Shown here: piece by piece, positions 16,889 to 23,485 of the stretch
How positions within the stretch are numbered: position 1 is the first letter of the stretch
How the letters are laid out: the number at the start of each line of letters is the position of its first letter
Program-made: the position numbers and the translations under genes
DNA from: Candidatus Saccharicenans sp.
GTDB lineage: Bacteria > Acidobacteriota > Aminicenantia > Aminicenantales > Saccharicenantaceae
Reading direction: 5' to 3'
Length of the DNA: 64,000 nt
NCBI GenBank assembly: GCA_030017715.1
Contig: JASEIU010000002.1
Coordinates: 1 to 64,000 of the forward strand
Notes under the pieces: generated by a model
Told to the model about the DNA's origin: nothing
The model's database searches: none
Seen by the model: the letters and a program-made list of their open reading frames with translations, nothing else

Positions 16889-17164
16889 AAATTGGGGACA
16901 CAATCTATATTTCCTGATTTTTTAACGATGGCCTTTTCCCCCGAGCCGATGACTCCAACCATCGCCGCGGGCCAAAAGCTCTGATATTCAGCCATTCGTC
17001 TTTTGCCCATTTGCACCGGGCGAGAACCAACCAAAAGGCGAAGATTTAAAATGGCATCGTTAATAAAAGAGCCTCTTAGCTGTTTGGCAAAAGCGAAAGG
17101 GCTCAACAATCAGCGAAATTCAAACCCTCGAAAATCGGGGAATGAGTATCGTGTCCCCCGTTTT
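16887..17164. mobile_element. MITE-like element 1 (terminal inverted repeat GGGGACAC)
   Basis: Fills the whole gap between two convergent genes. Left end AAAAATTGGGGACACAATC and right end (read on the minus strand) AAAACGGGGGACACGATAC are inverted repeats. The interior (GATGACTCCAACCATCGCCG and CATTTGCACCGGGCGAG) is homologous to element 3, for example at 22568-22650. No transposase frame is open. Each end contributes the last two bases of a TAA stop codon of the flanking gene. Confidence 0.75.
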
Positions 17165-18353
17165 AATAGATGGGCCAGCGGCGCTCGACAAAGCCGTTGC
17201 GGATTGCCCGCCAGTCGCCAAGCACCTCGTCGGCAATTTTCTTTATCTTATCCCGAACCTTGCTGACCTCTAAGCCCCAGAGTTCGACATTCAGAGCCTG
17301 CGGTTCGGTAATGGGCTCGTTGATCTGGCTGACCATATAGACATAAACCTGGGTGGTTTCCGGCAGGGTGGCCACAATCCGGTCGGCAATCAATTGACTC
17401 ATGATGCTGTAAATCTTTCCCACATGGCTGACCGGATTCTTTCCGGCCACAGCTTCCAGACTCATCGGGCGGTAGGGGGTTATCAGGCCGTTGGCCCGGT
17501 TGCCGCGGCCGACCTGACCGTCGTCGCCGGCCTCGGCGCTGGTGCCGGTTACGGTCAGATAAACCGAATCGGCAGTGTCGGCATGGTTGATAACAATTTC
17601 CACCGGCCGGGTGGTATATTGCTGAACAAATCCTTGCTTGAGATAATTGACGATTTCTCGTTTCACCGATTCGTAGGTTGTCCGGTCTTTAATTTCAGAA
17701 GCTACAAAAGCCGCGGCTATGGTGAGATTTATGGCCTGGCCCTTGCGAACTCCCATAACTTTTATGTCCTCGCCCAGAGCCGGAAATTTCTCCTTTCCAG
17801 CCGGGCTGTTCAGAAACTTTTCGGTCTCCAGGACGAGCCTTTCGAGCTGACTCAGCGGGGCGTATCCGACGGCCAGGGAAGTGTCGTTGGCCATGGGCGG
17901 GACGTCATTATCGGAAAAGATGTTGGTCAGGTCTTTGCTGCCCGACCGGATTAAAAGCTTAACCTCAAGGTGTTCTTTTCTTAGATGGGGCAGTTGCCCC
18001 ATCATCCAGTCTTTTATCCGGGTTTCCAGCCCGGGTCTGTCGATCAGGTACTTGCCCTGGATGTCCCCGGTCGCCCGGCCGACTATGTACAGCAGGGCCG
18101 GGTCAATTACCTTGCCGCCACCAAAATCAGCCTCGGAGCTGCCGCCGACCAGAACGGCTTTATCGACGTTATGATGCAGGATGCGCCCGGTCTCCCGGCG
18201 ATATATTTCAGAAAGAGCCACAGAAAGTTCTTCCGATGCTCCGTCGCATAGAGAATCTGGATGCCCTTTCCCCTTTCTTTCGACAATTTCCACCGGCATT
18301 TCTTCGGCTAAGAAATCCCGGCCCTCGCGAACCTCAAAATAGAATTCAGACAT
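17163..18353 (-). CDS. mat: archaeal-type S-adenosylmethionine synthetase
   Basis: Makes S-adenosylmethionine from methionine and ATP. The 396-residue sequence is of the archaeal MAT family, not bacterial MetK: it begins FYFEVREGRDFLAEEMPVEI, and shows VERKGKGHPDSLCDG, HHNVDKAVLVGG, FGGGKVIDP, GTSAEAGDDGQVGRGNR and the C-terminal DWRAIRNGF. Catalytic His and Asp (GHPDS) and the glycine-rich substrate loops are intact. GGAGG lies 5 bases before the ATG. A SAM-I riboswitch sits in the leader, confirming that the gene responds to its own product. The stop codon is formed with the terminal bases of a MITE. Archaeal MAT occurs in some bacteria, probably by transfer. Confidence 0.95.
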   Translation of the reverse strand: MSEFYFEVREGRDFLAEEMPVEIVERKGKGHPDSLCDGASEELSVALSEIYRRETGRILHHNVDKAVLVGGSSEADFGGGKVIDPALLYIVGRATGDIQGKYLIDRPGLETRIKDWMMGQLPHLRKEHLEVKLLIRSGSKDLTNIFSDNDVPPMANDTSLAVGYAPLSQLERLVLETEKFLNSPAGKEKFPALGEDIKVMGVRKGQAINLTIAAAFVASEIKDRTTYESVKREIVNYLKQGFVQQYTTRPVEIVINHADTADSVYLTVTGTSAEAGDDGQVGRGNRANGLITPYRPMSLEAVAGKNPVSHVGKIYSIMSQLIADRIVATLPETTQVYVYMVSQINEPITEPQALNVELWGLEVSKVRDKIKKIADEVLGDWRAIRNGFVERRWPIY

Positions 18354-18684: not shown

Positions 18685-18690
18685 ATTATA
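18685..18690 (-). promoter_or_regulatory. -10 element of the mat/riboswitch promoter
   Basis: On the minus strand a perfect TATAAT (18690-18685) lies about 24 bases upstream of the riboswitch P1. Seventeen bases further upstream the sequence is TTGTGT, which is part of MITE 2's terminal repeat, so the element's insertion seems to define the -35 region. Confidence 0.5.
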
Positions 18691-18698
18691 GTTAAAAA

Positions 18699-19173
18699 AA
18701 ACGGGGGACACAATACATATTCCCCATTTTTCCAGCATGCATTAAAATTTCCATCAATCATTTAACGCCGCAAATTGATAAATAACTGCTTTTTTCAAAC
18801 ATTCAGGCAAATCAATTATGAGCTCAATACTTTTTCGCACCGTCAGGCTCTGGCTGACATTATTTATTCTAATCATACTTCTTAACTGTCGGGATTCTTT
18901 GCTTCTCTTCTTATTATTATTCCCGCTTCATCTCATGGAATGATTTCCGCCTTTATCTATCTACAAATAATGTACCTGTCTTAAAATGTTTTTTCCCGAC
19001 AAGTCTTCAGGTCTCATCAAAGTAAAACAAAACGGGGACACCTTGATTGGGTGTAAATTCTTTTTTAATTCTGCTGATTCTGGCTTTTCTGCCTATTTTC
19101 CAACCATAATTTCCCAATCACAGACTGCAGCTAATCCTCGAAAATAGGTGAATATGTATTGTGTCCCCCGTTT
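18699..19173. mobile_element. MITE-like element 2 (terminal inverted repeat AAACGGGGGACACAATACAT)
   Basis: About 475 bp bounded by inverted repeats identical over about 24 bases: AAACGGGGGACACAATACAT at 18699 and its complement ending at 19173. An internal half-site, AAAACGGGGACACCTTGATT, lies near 19027. The interior is AT-rich, with no open transposase frame. Right-end flanking bases form the stop codon of the amidohydrolase on the minus strand. Confidence 0.75.
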
Positions 19174-20554
19174 AGAAGACGTGCTTGACGCGGGTGCGGT
19201 AATCGAGCGGATGGCCGCTGAAAATCACCAGCCTGGCTTCCTTTCCGGGCGCAATGCTTCCAATTCTGTCAGCAACTCCCAGCACTTCAGCCGCGTTGAT
19301 GGTGATGGCTTTAAGAGCCTCTTCTTCCGGTAAACCGCCGCGCACCGCCAGGGCGGCAACGAGCGGCAGCTCCTCTAAGTTGCCGAGTCCATACTGGACT
19401 TCACTCTGCAGCACGACCTTAACGCCGGCGGTGTGCAGACGGGCGGCGTTGCTTATTTCCACCTTCTCTGTCTCTGTCCTTTTCGGCCCGATGCTCATCG
19501 GCCCGACAATCACCGGAATTTTTCTTCGGGCAATTTCCTCAGCCAGCAGATAGCCTTCGGCGCAGCCGACCAGAACCGCCCTCAGCCCGAACTCATCCAC
19601 CAGCCTCAGTGCGGCGCCAATATCGTCCATCCGGTAGCACTCGATAAAGGCCGGGATTTCGCCGCGGATAACCTTAGCCAGGGCTTCCAGCTTGAGGTCC
19701 TTCTTTGGCTGCTGGATTTCATCCGACTTTTTCTTAGCTTTCGCGGCTTCGGCTCGCTCTTTTTCATATTTTGCCAGTTTATCGGCGTACTCCCGGGCTT
19801 CCAGCAGCGCCTGCCTGATTACGTAGACATTACCCATCCGCGTTGATGGTAACCTCCCCTTCTCGCCAAAAGCCTGCTTCGGCCCTTCGCCGATCGAAAA
19901 CTTGATTCCGGCCGGAGCCAGCATCACCATTTCCTCAACTGTGCGGCCCTGGAGGCGAACCACAGCCATCTGACCGCCGATGACCGACCGCCGGCCAGGT
20001 GTGATCAGCGCCGCCGCAATGCCGGCTGCCCGCGCCTGGGCGATTCTCTTATCAAACGGATAAAAGCCGTCAACGACGCTCAACTGGGCCACATTCGGCT
20101 CCGAAAGCTCTTCATTCTCGCTGCGGCCGGTTTCATCCGTCAGTCCGAGAGAAGAATGGGCGTCAATCAATCCGGGGAGAACCCAGCCTTCGGGTTCATC
20201 GATGATTTCAGCCCCTTCTGGAATGAAAAGCTCTCTGCCCACAGCTTTTATCAGTCTGTTTTCAACCAGGATCATTCCGTTCTCAAGCGCCGGGCCGGCC
20301 ATGGTGAGAATCCTGCCGGCTTTTATGACCAGAGGGCGGGCGGCAGCCTTTTGGCCGGGCTCTGTCTGCCCGCCGGTAACAGCGGATGTCTCAACCGACC
20401 AGGCGTTAAAAGTTACCAGCAGGAATAAAATCAACAGAACGGCCCGGCCCGCAAAAAAGCCCTTAAGCGGCTTTCCCGGGTAATAAGAATTAAGACTGGA
20501 ATCTGCCGTATCTCTGACCTTCACTGTGGTTTTTATTTTTTTTATGAAGTCCAT
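19172..20554 (-). CDS. amidohydrolase-family protein, altered metal motif, C-terminally shortened
   Basis: Imidazolonepropionase-like amidohydrolase, 460 residues, paralogue of the next gene upstream. A hydrophobic N-terminal segment (VLLILFLLVTFNAWSV) suggests membrane anchoring or export. Its N-terminal metal motif reads DAHSSLG instead of DAHSHLG, so one HxH histidine is missing. The protein stops at RTRVKHVF, whereas the paralogue continues for 17 more residues (VFIDGREVYRAP...). The stop codon is built from the terminus of MITE 2, so insertion probably cut the tail. Loss of the histidine makes ordinary zinc hydrolase activity doubtful; the protein may be a degraded or repurposed paralogue. 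Confidence 0.82.
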   Translation of the reverse strand: MDFIKKIKTTVKVRDTADSSLNSYYPGKPLKGFFAGRAVLLILFLLVTFNAWSVETSAVTGGQTEPGQKAAARPLVIKAGRILTMAGPALENGMILVENRLIKAVGRELFIPEGAEIIDEPEGWVLPGLIDAHSSLGLTDETGRSENEELSEPNVAQLSVVDGFYPFDKRIAQARAAGIAAALITPGRRSVIGGQMAVVRLQGRTVEEMVMLAPAGIKFSIGEGPKQAFGEKGRLPSTRMGNVYVIRQALLEAREYADKLAKYEKERAEAAKAKKKSDEIQQPKKDLKLEALAKVIRGEIPAFIECYRMDDIGAALRLVDEFGLRAVLVGCAEGYLLAEEIARRKIPVIVGPMSIGPKRTETEKVEISNAARLHTAGVKVVLQSEVQYGLGNLEELPLVAALAVRGGLPEEEALKAITINAAEVLGVADRIGSIAPGKEARLVIFSGHPLDYRTRVKHVF

Positions 20555-20879: not shown

Positions 20880-22253
20880 TCACTCCGCCGAAAGTCCGGG
20901 CGCTCTGTATACCTCCCGCCCATCGATAAAAACGCGAAGGGCCCGCTGCCTGATATCGAACAGATCCCCGCTCCAGACAACCAGGTCGGCGTCCTTGCCT
21001 TTTTCCAGGCTTCCAAGACGGTCAGCCACTCCGGCCAGTTCGGCGGGATTTATCGTTATCGCCCGCAAAGCAGCTTCCGGGTCCATCCCGTACTTTACGG
21101 CAATGGCCGCCTGGGTTCTCAGAAACGGCTGCTGAATCACATCGGCATCGGTCATAATCGATACTTCAATCCCGCGTCGGTGGAGATAATCAGCCAGGTT
21201 GACCAGCCGGTTCTGGTCGTCATAGGTAATCATTCGCGGGCCGACGACCACTTTCACCCGGTGACGGGCAAGCTCCTCAGCCACTTTGTAAGCTTCCTCA
21301 GCATGGGCTAACGACAATTCTTTAAAACCGAACTCCTCAGCCAGACGCACCGCGGTCATGATATCGTCAGCCGAGCCGACGTGAATATGAACCGGAATTT
21401 TCTTGTCGAGCACCAGAAGAAGGGCTTCTTTCTTGAGGTCGCGCGGGGGCGGGCCGGCGGCCGGATTTTTCTTTTTCTCCCGCTCATAATTTTCGAGCGC
21501 TTTTTTGTACTCGGCCGCTTCCAGCATCGCCTGGCGCACAAGATATGTCGTTCCCATCTTGGTCATCGGCATCTGGCCCTTGGTGGCATAAAAGCTCTTG
21601 CGTCCGAGGGCCATCTTCATGTCGGCCGGGAACTTGATGCACATCTCGTCCACTGTCCGACCGCGGAGCTTAAGCACCGCCGATTGTCCCCCGATGACGT
21701 TGCCAGAACCGGGATGGACCAGCGCCGCCGTCACGCCTTCAGCTACCGCGTGCAGGAATTGATTTTTATCGGGCCCGACTCCCTCGGGGTGGATTGAATC
21801 AATGATGCGCAGTTGAGGCGTAATCGGATCGGTCATCTCGTTATCTTCGGTAACCCCGCCGCTCGGCCCGAGGCCCAGGTGAGAATGCGCGTCGACCAGT
21901 CCCGGGGTGATCAGGCCGCCGGAAGCGTCGACGACGCGGGCACCAGCAGGAATTTTAAGCTCCGCCCCGATATCCAGAATCTTGCCGTCTTTGATGATGA
22001 TCGTCCCGCAGTCATAGCTCTGGCCGGCAGCAGTTAGAATTCGAGCCCCGGTGATGACTGTTATTTCGCCGCTCTGACTTTCCGCCGGGACGGCTACGAA
22101 AAACAACGAAATCAGCGCAACACAGAAGATAAGCCTGGCGCTCAGAAGCAGCCGGTTTTTTGAGGCTTTGCTGTCGCTGCCGGGCTGCCGCTCTAATAAC
22201 CCTGCCCATGAGAATTTTTCGCCGGATTTCCTCATGCTCTCTCCCGAACTCAA
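20880..22253 (-). CDS. amidohydrolase-family protein, secreted, intact metal motif
   Basis: A 457-residue imidazolonepropionase-like amidohydrolase with an N-terminal hydrophobic segment (LLLSARLIFCVALISLFFVAV), so probably exported. The HxH metal motif DAHSHLG (about residue 121) is intact, followed by ALVHPGSGNVIGGQSA, which resembles its paralogue. The C-terminal part has HIHVG and LAHAEEAYKVAEE histidines, then SIMTDADV as the usual later aspartate and ends VFIDGREVYRA. The substrate is unknown; dipeptide or hydantoin-type amides are family-level guesses. It is followed by its metal-motif-altered paralogue. Confidence 0.87.
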   Translation of the reverse strand: MSSGESMRKSGEKFSWAGLLERQPGSDSKASKNRLLLSARLIFCVALISLFFVAVPAESQSGEITVITGARILTAAGQSYDCGTIIIKDGKILDIGAELKIPAGARVVDASGGLITPGLVDAHSHLGLGPSGGVTEDNEMTDPITPQLRIIDSIHPEGVGPDKNQFLHAVAEGVTAALVHPGSGNVIGGQSAVLKLRGRTVDEMCIKFPADMKMALGRKSFYATKGQMPMTKMGTTYLVRQAMLEAAEYKKALENYEREKKKNPAAGPPPRDLKKEALLLVLDKKIPVHIHVGSADDIMTAVRLAEEFGFKELSLAHAEEAYKVAEELARHRVKVVVGPRMITYDDQNRLVNLADYLHRRGIEVSIMTDADVIQQPFLRTQAAIAVKYGMDPEAALRAITINPAELAGVADRLGSLEKGKDADLVVWSGDLFDIRQRALRVFIDGREVYRAPGLSAE

Positions 22254-22283
22254 AGTTCAGCTTTCTAATATACTACAAAACAA

Positions 22284-22785
22284 AACGGGGGACACAATAC
22301 ATATTCCCCAATTTTTATCGGGGACACCTTCTACCTTTCCATATTTTTCCCGCCTCAAGCTATCAAATAATTATTATCCTCAGCTTTCAATACAAAATGC
22401 CAGTTTTATTGACACAGGCCATTTTTTTAATGAAGGTTTCATCTACCGTCAGGAGAAGCCCAGAAAGATCATATCTGTCAAAAAGAGGTACACAAGGTAT
22501 ACTTTCCGATCTTTTAATCATGTTTCCCGGTTTTTTCTCTATCTAAATGCGGGCCTTCCCCCGGACTGATGACACCAACCATCACCGCGGGCGAAATTTT
22601 CTGATCATTCAGCCCTTCGCCCTTTGGACATTTGCATCGACCGAGAAATGACCGGAAGAGGAAGATCTAAAAATCGAATTGTTTATAAAATAGTTTCTTA
22701 GCTTTTTTGCCAAAGCAAAACGGCTCAGTATTAAACAAAAGCCGGGCCTCAAAAATTGGGAAATGAGTATTGTGTCCCCCGTTTT
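22284..22785. mobile_element. MITE-like element 3 (terminal inverted repeat AAAACGGGGGACACAATAC)
   Basis: About 500 bp with left end AAAACGGGGGACACAATAC (22283) and right end the complement (ending 22785). The interior shares GACACCAACCATCACCGCGGGC and GGACATTTGCATCGACCGAG with element 1. An extra half-site GGGGACACCTTCTACC lies at 22320. The right end shares two bases with the plsC stop TAA. No transposase frame is open. Confidence 0.75.
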
Positions 22786-23485
22786 AAGAGGAGGCGATAG
22801 CCTGGCGGACTGCTTCAAGCAGCGCTGGAATGTCCTCTGCAGTGTGGCCGGCTGTCTCCACCGGCGGGTGAAAAATAACCCGGATGAGCCCGCGCCGCGG
22901 AAAAATTCTCCCCTTTGGCATCAGCTCGAACGTGCCTTTAATGGTAATCGGAATGATAGGCGCCTGGGCGGCCAGCGCCAGAAAGAAACCGCCCCGCTTG
23001 AAAGGCTGCAGTTTTCCCGTTCGACTTCTGGTTCCTTCGGGAAAGATCAGGAAGGAATATCCTCTTTCCTTCATCATCCGGGCGGCTTCATCTATGCTAC
23101 GCTTCCCGCCGCTGGCCCGCTTGCGGTCAACCGGCACGAATCCGACAAAACGCATCCCCGGCCCGACAATAGGGATGCGGAAGATGCTCTTCTTAAGGAT
23201 GACCCGCACCCGCTGCGGGATAACATAGAAAAGGAGAGGCCCGTCCAGGAAGCTCAGGTGGTTAGCCATAAAAACATAGCCTCTGCCCGGATCAACATTT
23301 TCCAGCCCGAGGACCTCAATTTTAAGCCTGAGCAGATGGCGGCTGACAGCCATCGCCCATTTGCCCACCAGGAGAAGCGGCTCCCTTATCCCCAGCGGCC
23401 AGAAAACCAGCAGCACCGGTGTCAGTAGTACCACCAGCACCACATAAAAAACGAGCAGAATTACCGTCCTTATCACCGCCATCAC
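22784..23485 (-). CDS. plsC: 1-acyl-sn-glycerol-3-phosphate acyltransferase
   Basis: Membrane acyltransferase making phosphatidic acid from lysophosphatidic acid in phospholipid synthesis. The 233 residues include an N-terminal hydrophobic segment (about 6-30) and all family motifs: NHLSFLD at 75-81 (NHxxxxD, catalytic His and Asp), then VPVDRKRASGG near 118 and FPEGTRS at 148-154. The reading frame ends RQAIASS, and the TAA stop is completed by the terminal repeat of MITE 3. A GGAG precedes the ATG at 23485. It sits alone between MITE 3 and the AT-rich island. Confidence 0.93.
   Translation of the reverse strand: MMAVIRTVILLVFYVVLVVLLTPVLLVFWPLGIREPLLLVGKWAMAVSRHLLRLKIEVLGLENVDPGRGYVFMANHLSFLDGPLLFYVIPQRVRVILKKSIFRIPIVGPGMRFVGFVPVDRKRASGGKRSIDEAARMMKERGYSFLIFPEGTRSRTGKLQPFKRGGFFLALAAQAPIIPITIKGTFELMPKGRIFPRRGLIRVIFHPPVETAGHTAEDIPALLEAVRQAIASS

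Follow-up and report, generated by a model that had tools for sequence, protein, structure and literature searches.

Two adjacent amidohydrolase-like genes

The window, by which we mean the whole stretch of 64,000 nucleotides that was analysed, carries two adjacent paralogous genes on its minus strand, here called A and B. Gene A (positions 19172–20554, minus strand) encodes a protein of 460 residues and lies downstream of B (20880–22253, minus strand), whose 457 residues are those of an ORF listed from a TTG codon, the true start being uncertain. Hydropathy revealed a hydrophobic N-terminal stretch in both proteins, suggesting that A and B are exported. REP repeats are found around the genes. 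One copy overlaps the stop codon of A (19136–19179, minus strand), and another, at 18699–18738 on the plus strand, is inverted relative to it. Upstream of B is a copy at 22278–22315 (plus strand), with an inverted counterpart at 22747–22790 (minus strand).

Both proteins score above the Pfam cut-off for the amidohydrolase family, A reaching 60.9 bits against PF01979 (Amidohydro_1; cut-off 25). By this homology, A belongs to the amidohydrolase superfamily fold of a TIM barrel with a β-sandwich. The closest solved relative of either protein is 3ooq from Thermotoga maritima (237 bits for A, 275 bits for B). A structure model of A (mean pLDDT 75.2) superposed on 3ooq_F with a Z-score of 46.6 and an rmsd of 2.2 over 371 aligned residues, so the whole fold is predicted to be kept. 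The window belongs to a genome related to Candidatus Saccharicenans (Aminicenantes), with an 89% identical protein at the nearest named locus. Neither protein reached the cut-off of any NCBIfam model among the best 25 of 58 matches for A and the best 25 of 75 for B. These included the equivalogs for imidazolonepropionase (A 55.9 bits, B 72.7 bits; cut-off 298.15) and Xaa-Pro dipeptidase (A 60.9 bits, B 72.0 bits; cut-off 500).

The metal site of A is lost

A catalytic metal-dependent amidohydrolase carries an HxH motif, a His on β-5, a His on β-6 and an Asp on β-8, and we take the five positions of 3ooq aligned to these to be its metal ligands. All five are kept in B, whereas A retains one of five, the first His of HxH. 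In the alignments, the second His is replaced by S135 (codon at 20150–20152, minus strand), the β-5 His by E305 (19640–19642, minus strand) and the β-6 His by G330 (19565–19567, minus strand), while S384 and E385 (19400–19405, minus strand) surround the place of the β-8 Asp. The preliminary description of this locus had noted DAHSSLG in A against DAHSHLG in B, and a stop at KHVF where B continues. The ORFs do read this way, A ending in RVKHVF* and B continuing as VFIDGREVYRAPGLSAE. That description saw the loss of one metal His, which is correct for the Ser at the second His but understates the change, as four of the five ligands are gone. Its suggestion of a pseudo-enzyme is supported and extends to all four: judged from the alignments, A is a pseudoenzyme with a preserved fold that would be unable to build the usual metal centre.

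Gene A is conserved and constrained

Of the 18 other genomes of the genus that we searched, 12 have an orthologue of A with at least 74% identity. More distant copies (48–65% identity) were found in 4 of 15 genomes from other genera of the family, and in 1 of 26 from elsewhere in the order. Counting the source genome, A is present in 13 of 19 genomes of the genus, and the same 13 have an orthologue of B. The order of A and B is kept in all 12 other loci. Beyond A lies a metK-like gene in eight of these and just upstream of B a plsC-like gene in nine, with names assigned by eye and several loci cut by contig ends.

The altered metal site is shared by these orthologues. Ser replaces the second His in all 12 copies of the genus in which the motif could be read, source included, so the homologue alignment proposed in the preliminary description shows the serine to be fixed in the genus. 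The first His is a Gln in two same-genus copies (G007 and G015). Outside the genus, the second His is absent from all four readable copies and from five further named loci (L087, L088, L089, L092 and L094). The β-5 place holds Glu and the β-6 place Gly in all 23 A-type rows of the named loci. As the β-8 place is still Asp in 5 of these 23 rows, loss of this ligand is not general. Residues E305, C306, R308, D310 and D311 of A are invariant in 16 orthologues.

The preliminary description had also proposed that A may be a decaying copy, and a comparison of dN/dS was to inform on this. By the NG86 method, dN/dS in the closest pair (source and G014) was 0.162 (A) and 0.167 (B). Of the 66 same-genus pairs, 37 were listed (pS of A below 0.72), and in these A ranged from 0.059 to 0.241, well under 1 and in most pairs close to B; the comparison is rough, with many dS values above 1. 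In one close pair, G004 and G011, A was looser than B (0.241 versus 0.082). On these sequence comparisons, gene A is old and under purifying selection. Decay of a duplicate of B, shortened by a repeat insertion, would explain the ligand change in A and its looser evolution in that one pair. It is at odds with a state that is fixed across genera (the second His being missing in nine of nine orthologues elsewhere) and with the low dN/dS of all 37 pairs.

A repeat at the stop codon of A

The short end of A and its partly repeat-made stop codon would also fit decay, and the preliminary description attributed the stop to a MITE. The repeat is about 34 bp long with the core GGGGGACACAATAC, which has 34 exact copies in the genome against none for the same pattern read backwards, so it recurs more than by chance. 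In the 33 copies that were read, the core is always preceded by AAA at −4 to −2, with A (n = 29), T (n = 3) or G (n = 1) at −5. The TAA stop of A (19172–19174) consists of base −5 and the first two bases of this AAA, placing two of its three bases within the repeat. To this extent the attribution stands; the MITE itself does not. The 491-bp stretch at 18690–19180 recurred in the genome through its ends of about 40 bp only, and the stretch between the inverted REPs (18699–19173) had no further copy, in both cases with 40 of 67 first-look candidates scored. We therefore rejected this MITE as a unit, since its interior had no repeat among the candidates scored, and regard the element as a REP. 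In the region upstream of B (22270–22800; 40 of 68 candidates scored), a part of about 234 bp recurs once at 76% identity. This part, which has a REP at its end (copies at 16936–17169 and 22556–22790), might be a longer non-autonomous unit.

In known systems, REP-associated transposases are bracketed by two inverted REPs, according to PMC2817692. The source genome has the same arrangement: an open frame for a Y1 transposase (C10:430161–430940) lies between inverted REP copies at 429435 (plus strand) and 431013 (minus strand). It differs in scale, with two transposase genes and the 34 exact core copies here against usually more than 100 copies in PMC2817692. Translated in frame, the REP yields a tail KTGDTIL: the transposase frame closes with KTGDTILVH and a neighbouring ORF with KTGDTILFP (L113, G000:C10:429100–431400). 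REPs may thus contribute C-terminal tails in addition to stops.

To see how far the repeat shaped the end of A, we measured the tail that follows the last aligned Val (Leu in G002) in each of the 13 same-genus orthologues. The tail is one residue long in the source genome (KHVF) and G014 (KRVF), four in G017 and G001, five in G004, G011, G015, G010 and G002, seven in G012 and G013, and twelve in G005 and G007. In five copies outside the genus it measures twelve to sixteen residues. A REP-like repeat overlaps the stop of A or lies within about 10 bases of it in 7 of the 13 (the source genome, G014, G004, G011, G007, G017 and G001), the one in G007 being degenerate and judged by eye. Among these repeats (19136–19179 in the window, and L036, L038, L039, L040, L045 and L046), at least two types can be told apart by eye, which suggests that the end of this gene was captured more than once.

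The six same-genus orthologues with no REP at the stop (G015, G010, G002, G012, G013 and G005) end 4–11 residues later than A. The preliminary description reasoned that repeat-free orthologues with the same short end would show the length to be normal. In part they do: their lengths vary, but five of the six are well short of paralogue B. The exact end KxVF*, however, is restricted to the source genome and G014, both of which have a REP-like repeat at the stop. The truncation is hence real relative to B and amounts to 4–11 residues relative to repeat-free orthologues. From the tail lengths and REP positions, the short end is largely a trait of the genus, and copies in which a REP came to supply the stop have lost a few residues more. 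An end that is short in most of the genus is not what decay of a single copy would give, and the catalytic loss does not stem from the short C-terminus.

One intact domain in nearly every cluster

We next looked at how ligand-less and intact domains are distributed among related loci. Domains were read in 40 stretches, one of them the window itself and 39 from 59 relatives and the source genome, as well as in 27 named loci, 8 of which were not already covered and entered the cluster count. A sample of 149 genomes from the phylum contained 69 with a match, and 30 loci and 40 stretches were drawn from it. Each of the 69 is represented by one or more loci, and several of them have further loci outside the count. 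Domains were detected by phmmer (A or B as query, cut-off 1e-8) in the relatives and by HMM searches in the named loci and the phylum sample. Fragments below 150, 120 and 80 residues, respectively, were dropped, and rows gapped at a ligand column were left out of the ligand counts.

Among the 110 clusters in which two or more domains were fully readable, 108 (70 of 72 and 38 of 38) had exactly one domain with all five ligands. When labels were shuffled over the 72 clusters, at most 52 had exactly one complete domain in 10,000 trials. The set of 72 is without the pair of G002 (one intact, one ligand-less), which binning had split into two. The set of 38 leaves out stretches below 100 bits, such weak rows existing in L179 and L192, and excludes L187 and L190 (of 40 loci), where a cut domain lies beside a ligand-less one. 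Loci of the phylum sample were picked by similarity to the intact domain, with up to 10 candidates scored per genome, and those of the relatives by similarity to A. One kind of domain is therefore present by construction, but the other is not. Of the two exceptions, G050.C15 combines two intact domains with three ligand-less ones. G041.C120 has none intact and lies at a contig edge; contig C476 of the same genome ends in an intact domain. In the first of these (L053, G050:C15:9169–15559), the five domains stand in a row, with an active-dead fusion on either side of a single ligand-less gene.

In all, 281 domains were read, of which 114 were complete and 167 ligand-less. The latter keep zero (n = 96), one (n = 57), two (n = 12) or three (n = 2) of the five ligands, and none keeps four. 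Two ligand-poor domains that keep three (R H R H D; L128 and L130) are possible intermediates or other metal binders. A further conserved place is Lys in 113 of the 114 complete domains; our guess from the sequences is that this is possibly a bridging ligand. Gly occupies the β-6 place in 122 of the 167 ligand-less domains, and the residues at the former ligand places vary widely among them. This bears on the idea that A is another kind of catalyst, with a pocket rebuilt around E305, C306, R308, D310 and D311 and no standard metal site. The invariance of these residues in 16 orthologues implies that the pocket is under selection, but the wide variation at the former ligand places speaks against it, and we know of no such chemistry. 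We consider it quite unlikely.

Fusions of an intact and a ligand-less domain were found in both orders, and a dead-active-dead fusion at least once (L182, a single open frame of 1419 codons). Similar pairs occur in one Thermoanaerobaculia, one Proteobacteria and one Sphingomonadaceae locus. In a Clostridiales locus (L100), no ligand-less partner was recognised within 13 kb of an intact member, which indicates that the intact enzyme can occur without one. It stands outside the cluster counts, its second row (HHKGD) being by eye a misaligned intact amidohydrolase of another kind. That ligand-less domains are nearly always beside or fused to one intact enzyme suggests that they act as its non-catalytic partners.

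Origin of the metal-less line

We built three trees without the ligand columns. In each, one branch parts complete from ligand-less rows, with an SH-aLRT of 95 (92 rows), a local support of 96 (183 rows), and a bootstrap/SH-aLRT of 98/95 (64 rows thinned from the 92; recovered in 98% of 200 bootstrap trees). This well-supported branch indicates that the metal-less line is probably old and of single origin. The trees of 92 and 183 rows carry long branches (flagged by warnings), and ligand-less rows might group artificially because they have all lost the same constraint. A single origin is hence favoured but not proven. A and B as sisters were rejected (p-AU 0.00115, for a group named after the tree was seen), and with this a recent duplication of B as the origin of A. 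Together with the evidence from selection and gene ends, this leaves a decaying duplicate of B extremely improbable.

The likely role of A

We propose that A is a conserved pseudoenzyme of an old ligand-less line and a structural or regulatory partner of B, a reading to which we give a probability of roughly 70%. The ligand-less and ligand-complete lines would have parted before the divergence of the families studied here. Once exported, A and B would associate in a hetero-oligomer whose only active site is that of B, and A may supply a subunit interface, stabilise B or shape its substrate entrance. As far as sequence can tell, a structural or regulatory subunit of such a hetero-oligomer is the most likely role. 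The adjacency of A and B also fits co-regulation only. A could instead act on its own as a sensor or a binding protein that recognises the substrate or product of B, making no stable contact with B. Its conserved pocket, the hydrophobic N-terminal segments of both proteins and their separate genes in this genus are consistent with this, but the fusions that join an intact to a ligand-less domain in relatives favour a built-in partner, and we consider the sensor unlikely.

If A is a subunit partner of B, the arrangement may be general. We rate as slightly better than even the broader proposal that Acidobacteriota, and at least some Proteobacteria, have exported amidohydrolase assemblies built by a fixed rule, in which one metal-bearing domain is combined with one or two metal-less domains of ancient origin, encoded separately or in one chain (dead-active, active-dead or dead-active-dead). 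The metal-less line would have arisen once and been an obligate partner since, and many proteins of this kind annotated as 'amidohydrolase family' would be non-catalytic subunits. If so, 167 of the 281 domains of this group cannot be ordinary metal enzymes despite their family match, and their role would be to build or tune a partner. The separate, two-domain and three-domain forms would then be a large natural series for asking why enzymes keep inactive homologues for so long.

Comparison with known systems

Our search of the open-licence PMC literature found no description of amidohydrolase pseudoenzyme pairs of the A–B kind, which does not imply their absence from print. The closest solved relative, 3ooq, is a structural genomics amidohydrolase that differs from A in keeping all five ligands, as B does. 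The CRMPs are, like A, ligand-poor members of the superfamily: according to PMC4051505, CRMP-4 keeps two of six metal residues, and CRMPs lack DHPase activity and form heterotetramers. They differ from A in being related to dihydropyrimidinase. The best sequence match of A to them spans at most its residues 72–144, and the best stretches lie within residues 70–144, as given by phmmer, which reports local stretches only. To our knowledge, CRMPs are not tied to one intact enzyme. Inactive dihydroorotases offer a second likeness, as amidohydrolase-fold subunits or domains that are kept with a partner. An inactive dihydroorotase is required for assembly of the Pseudomonas putida ATCase, according to the title of a reference in PMC4581275, and that paper describes an inactive dihydroorotase domain kept in fungal CAD-like proteins. 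There the partner is a transcarbamylase, whereas none of the ORFs neighbouring A is transcarbamylase-like by eye, and the partner of A would be its own intact homologue.
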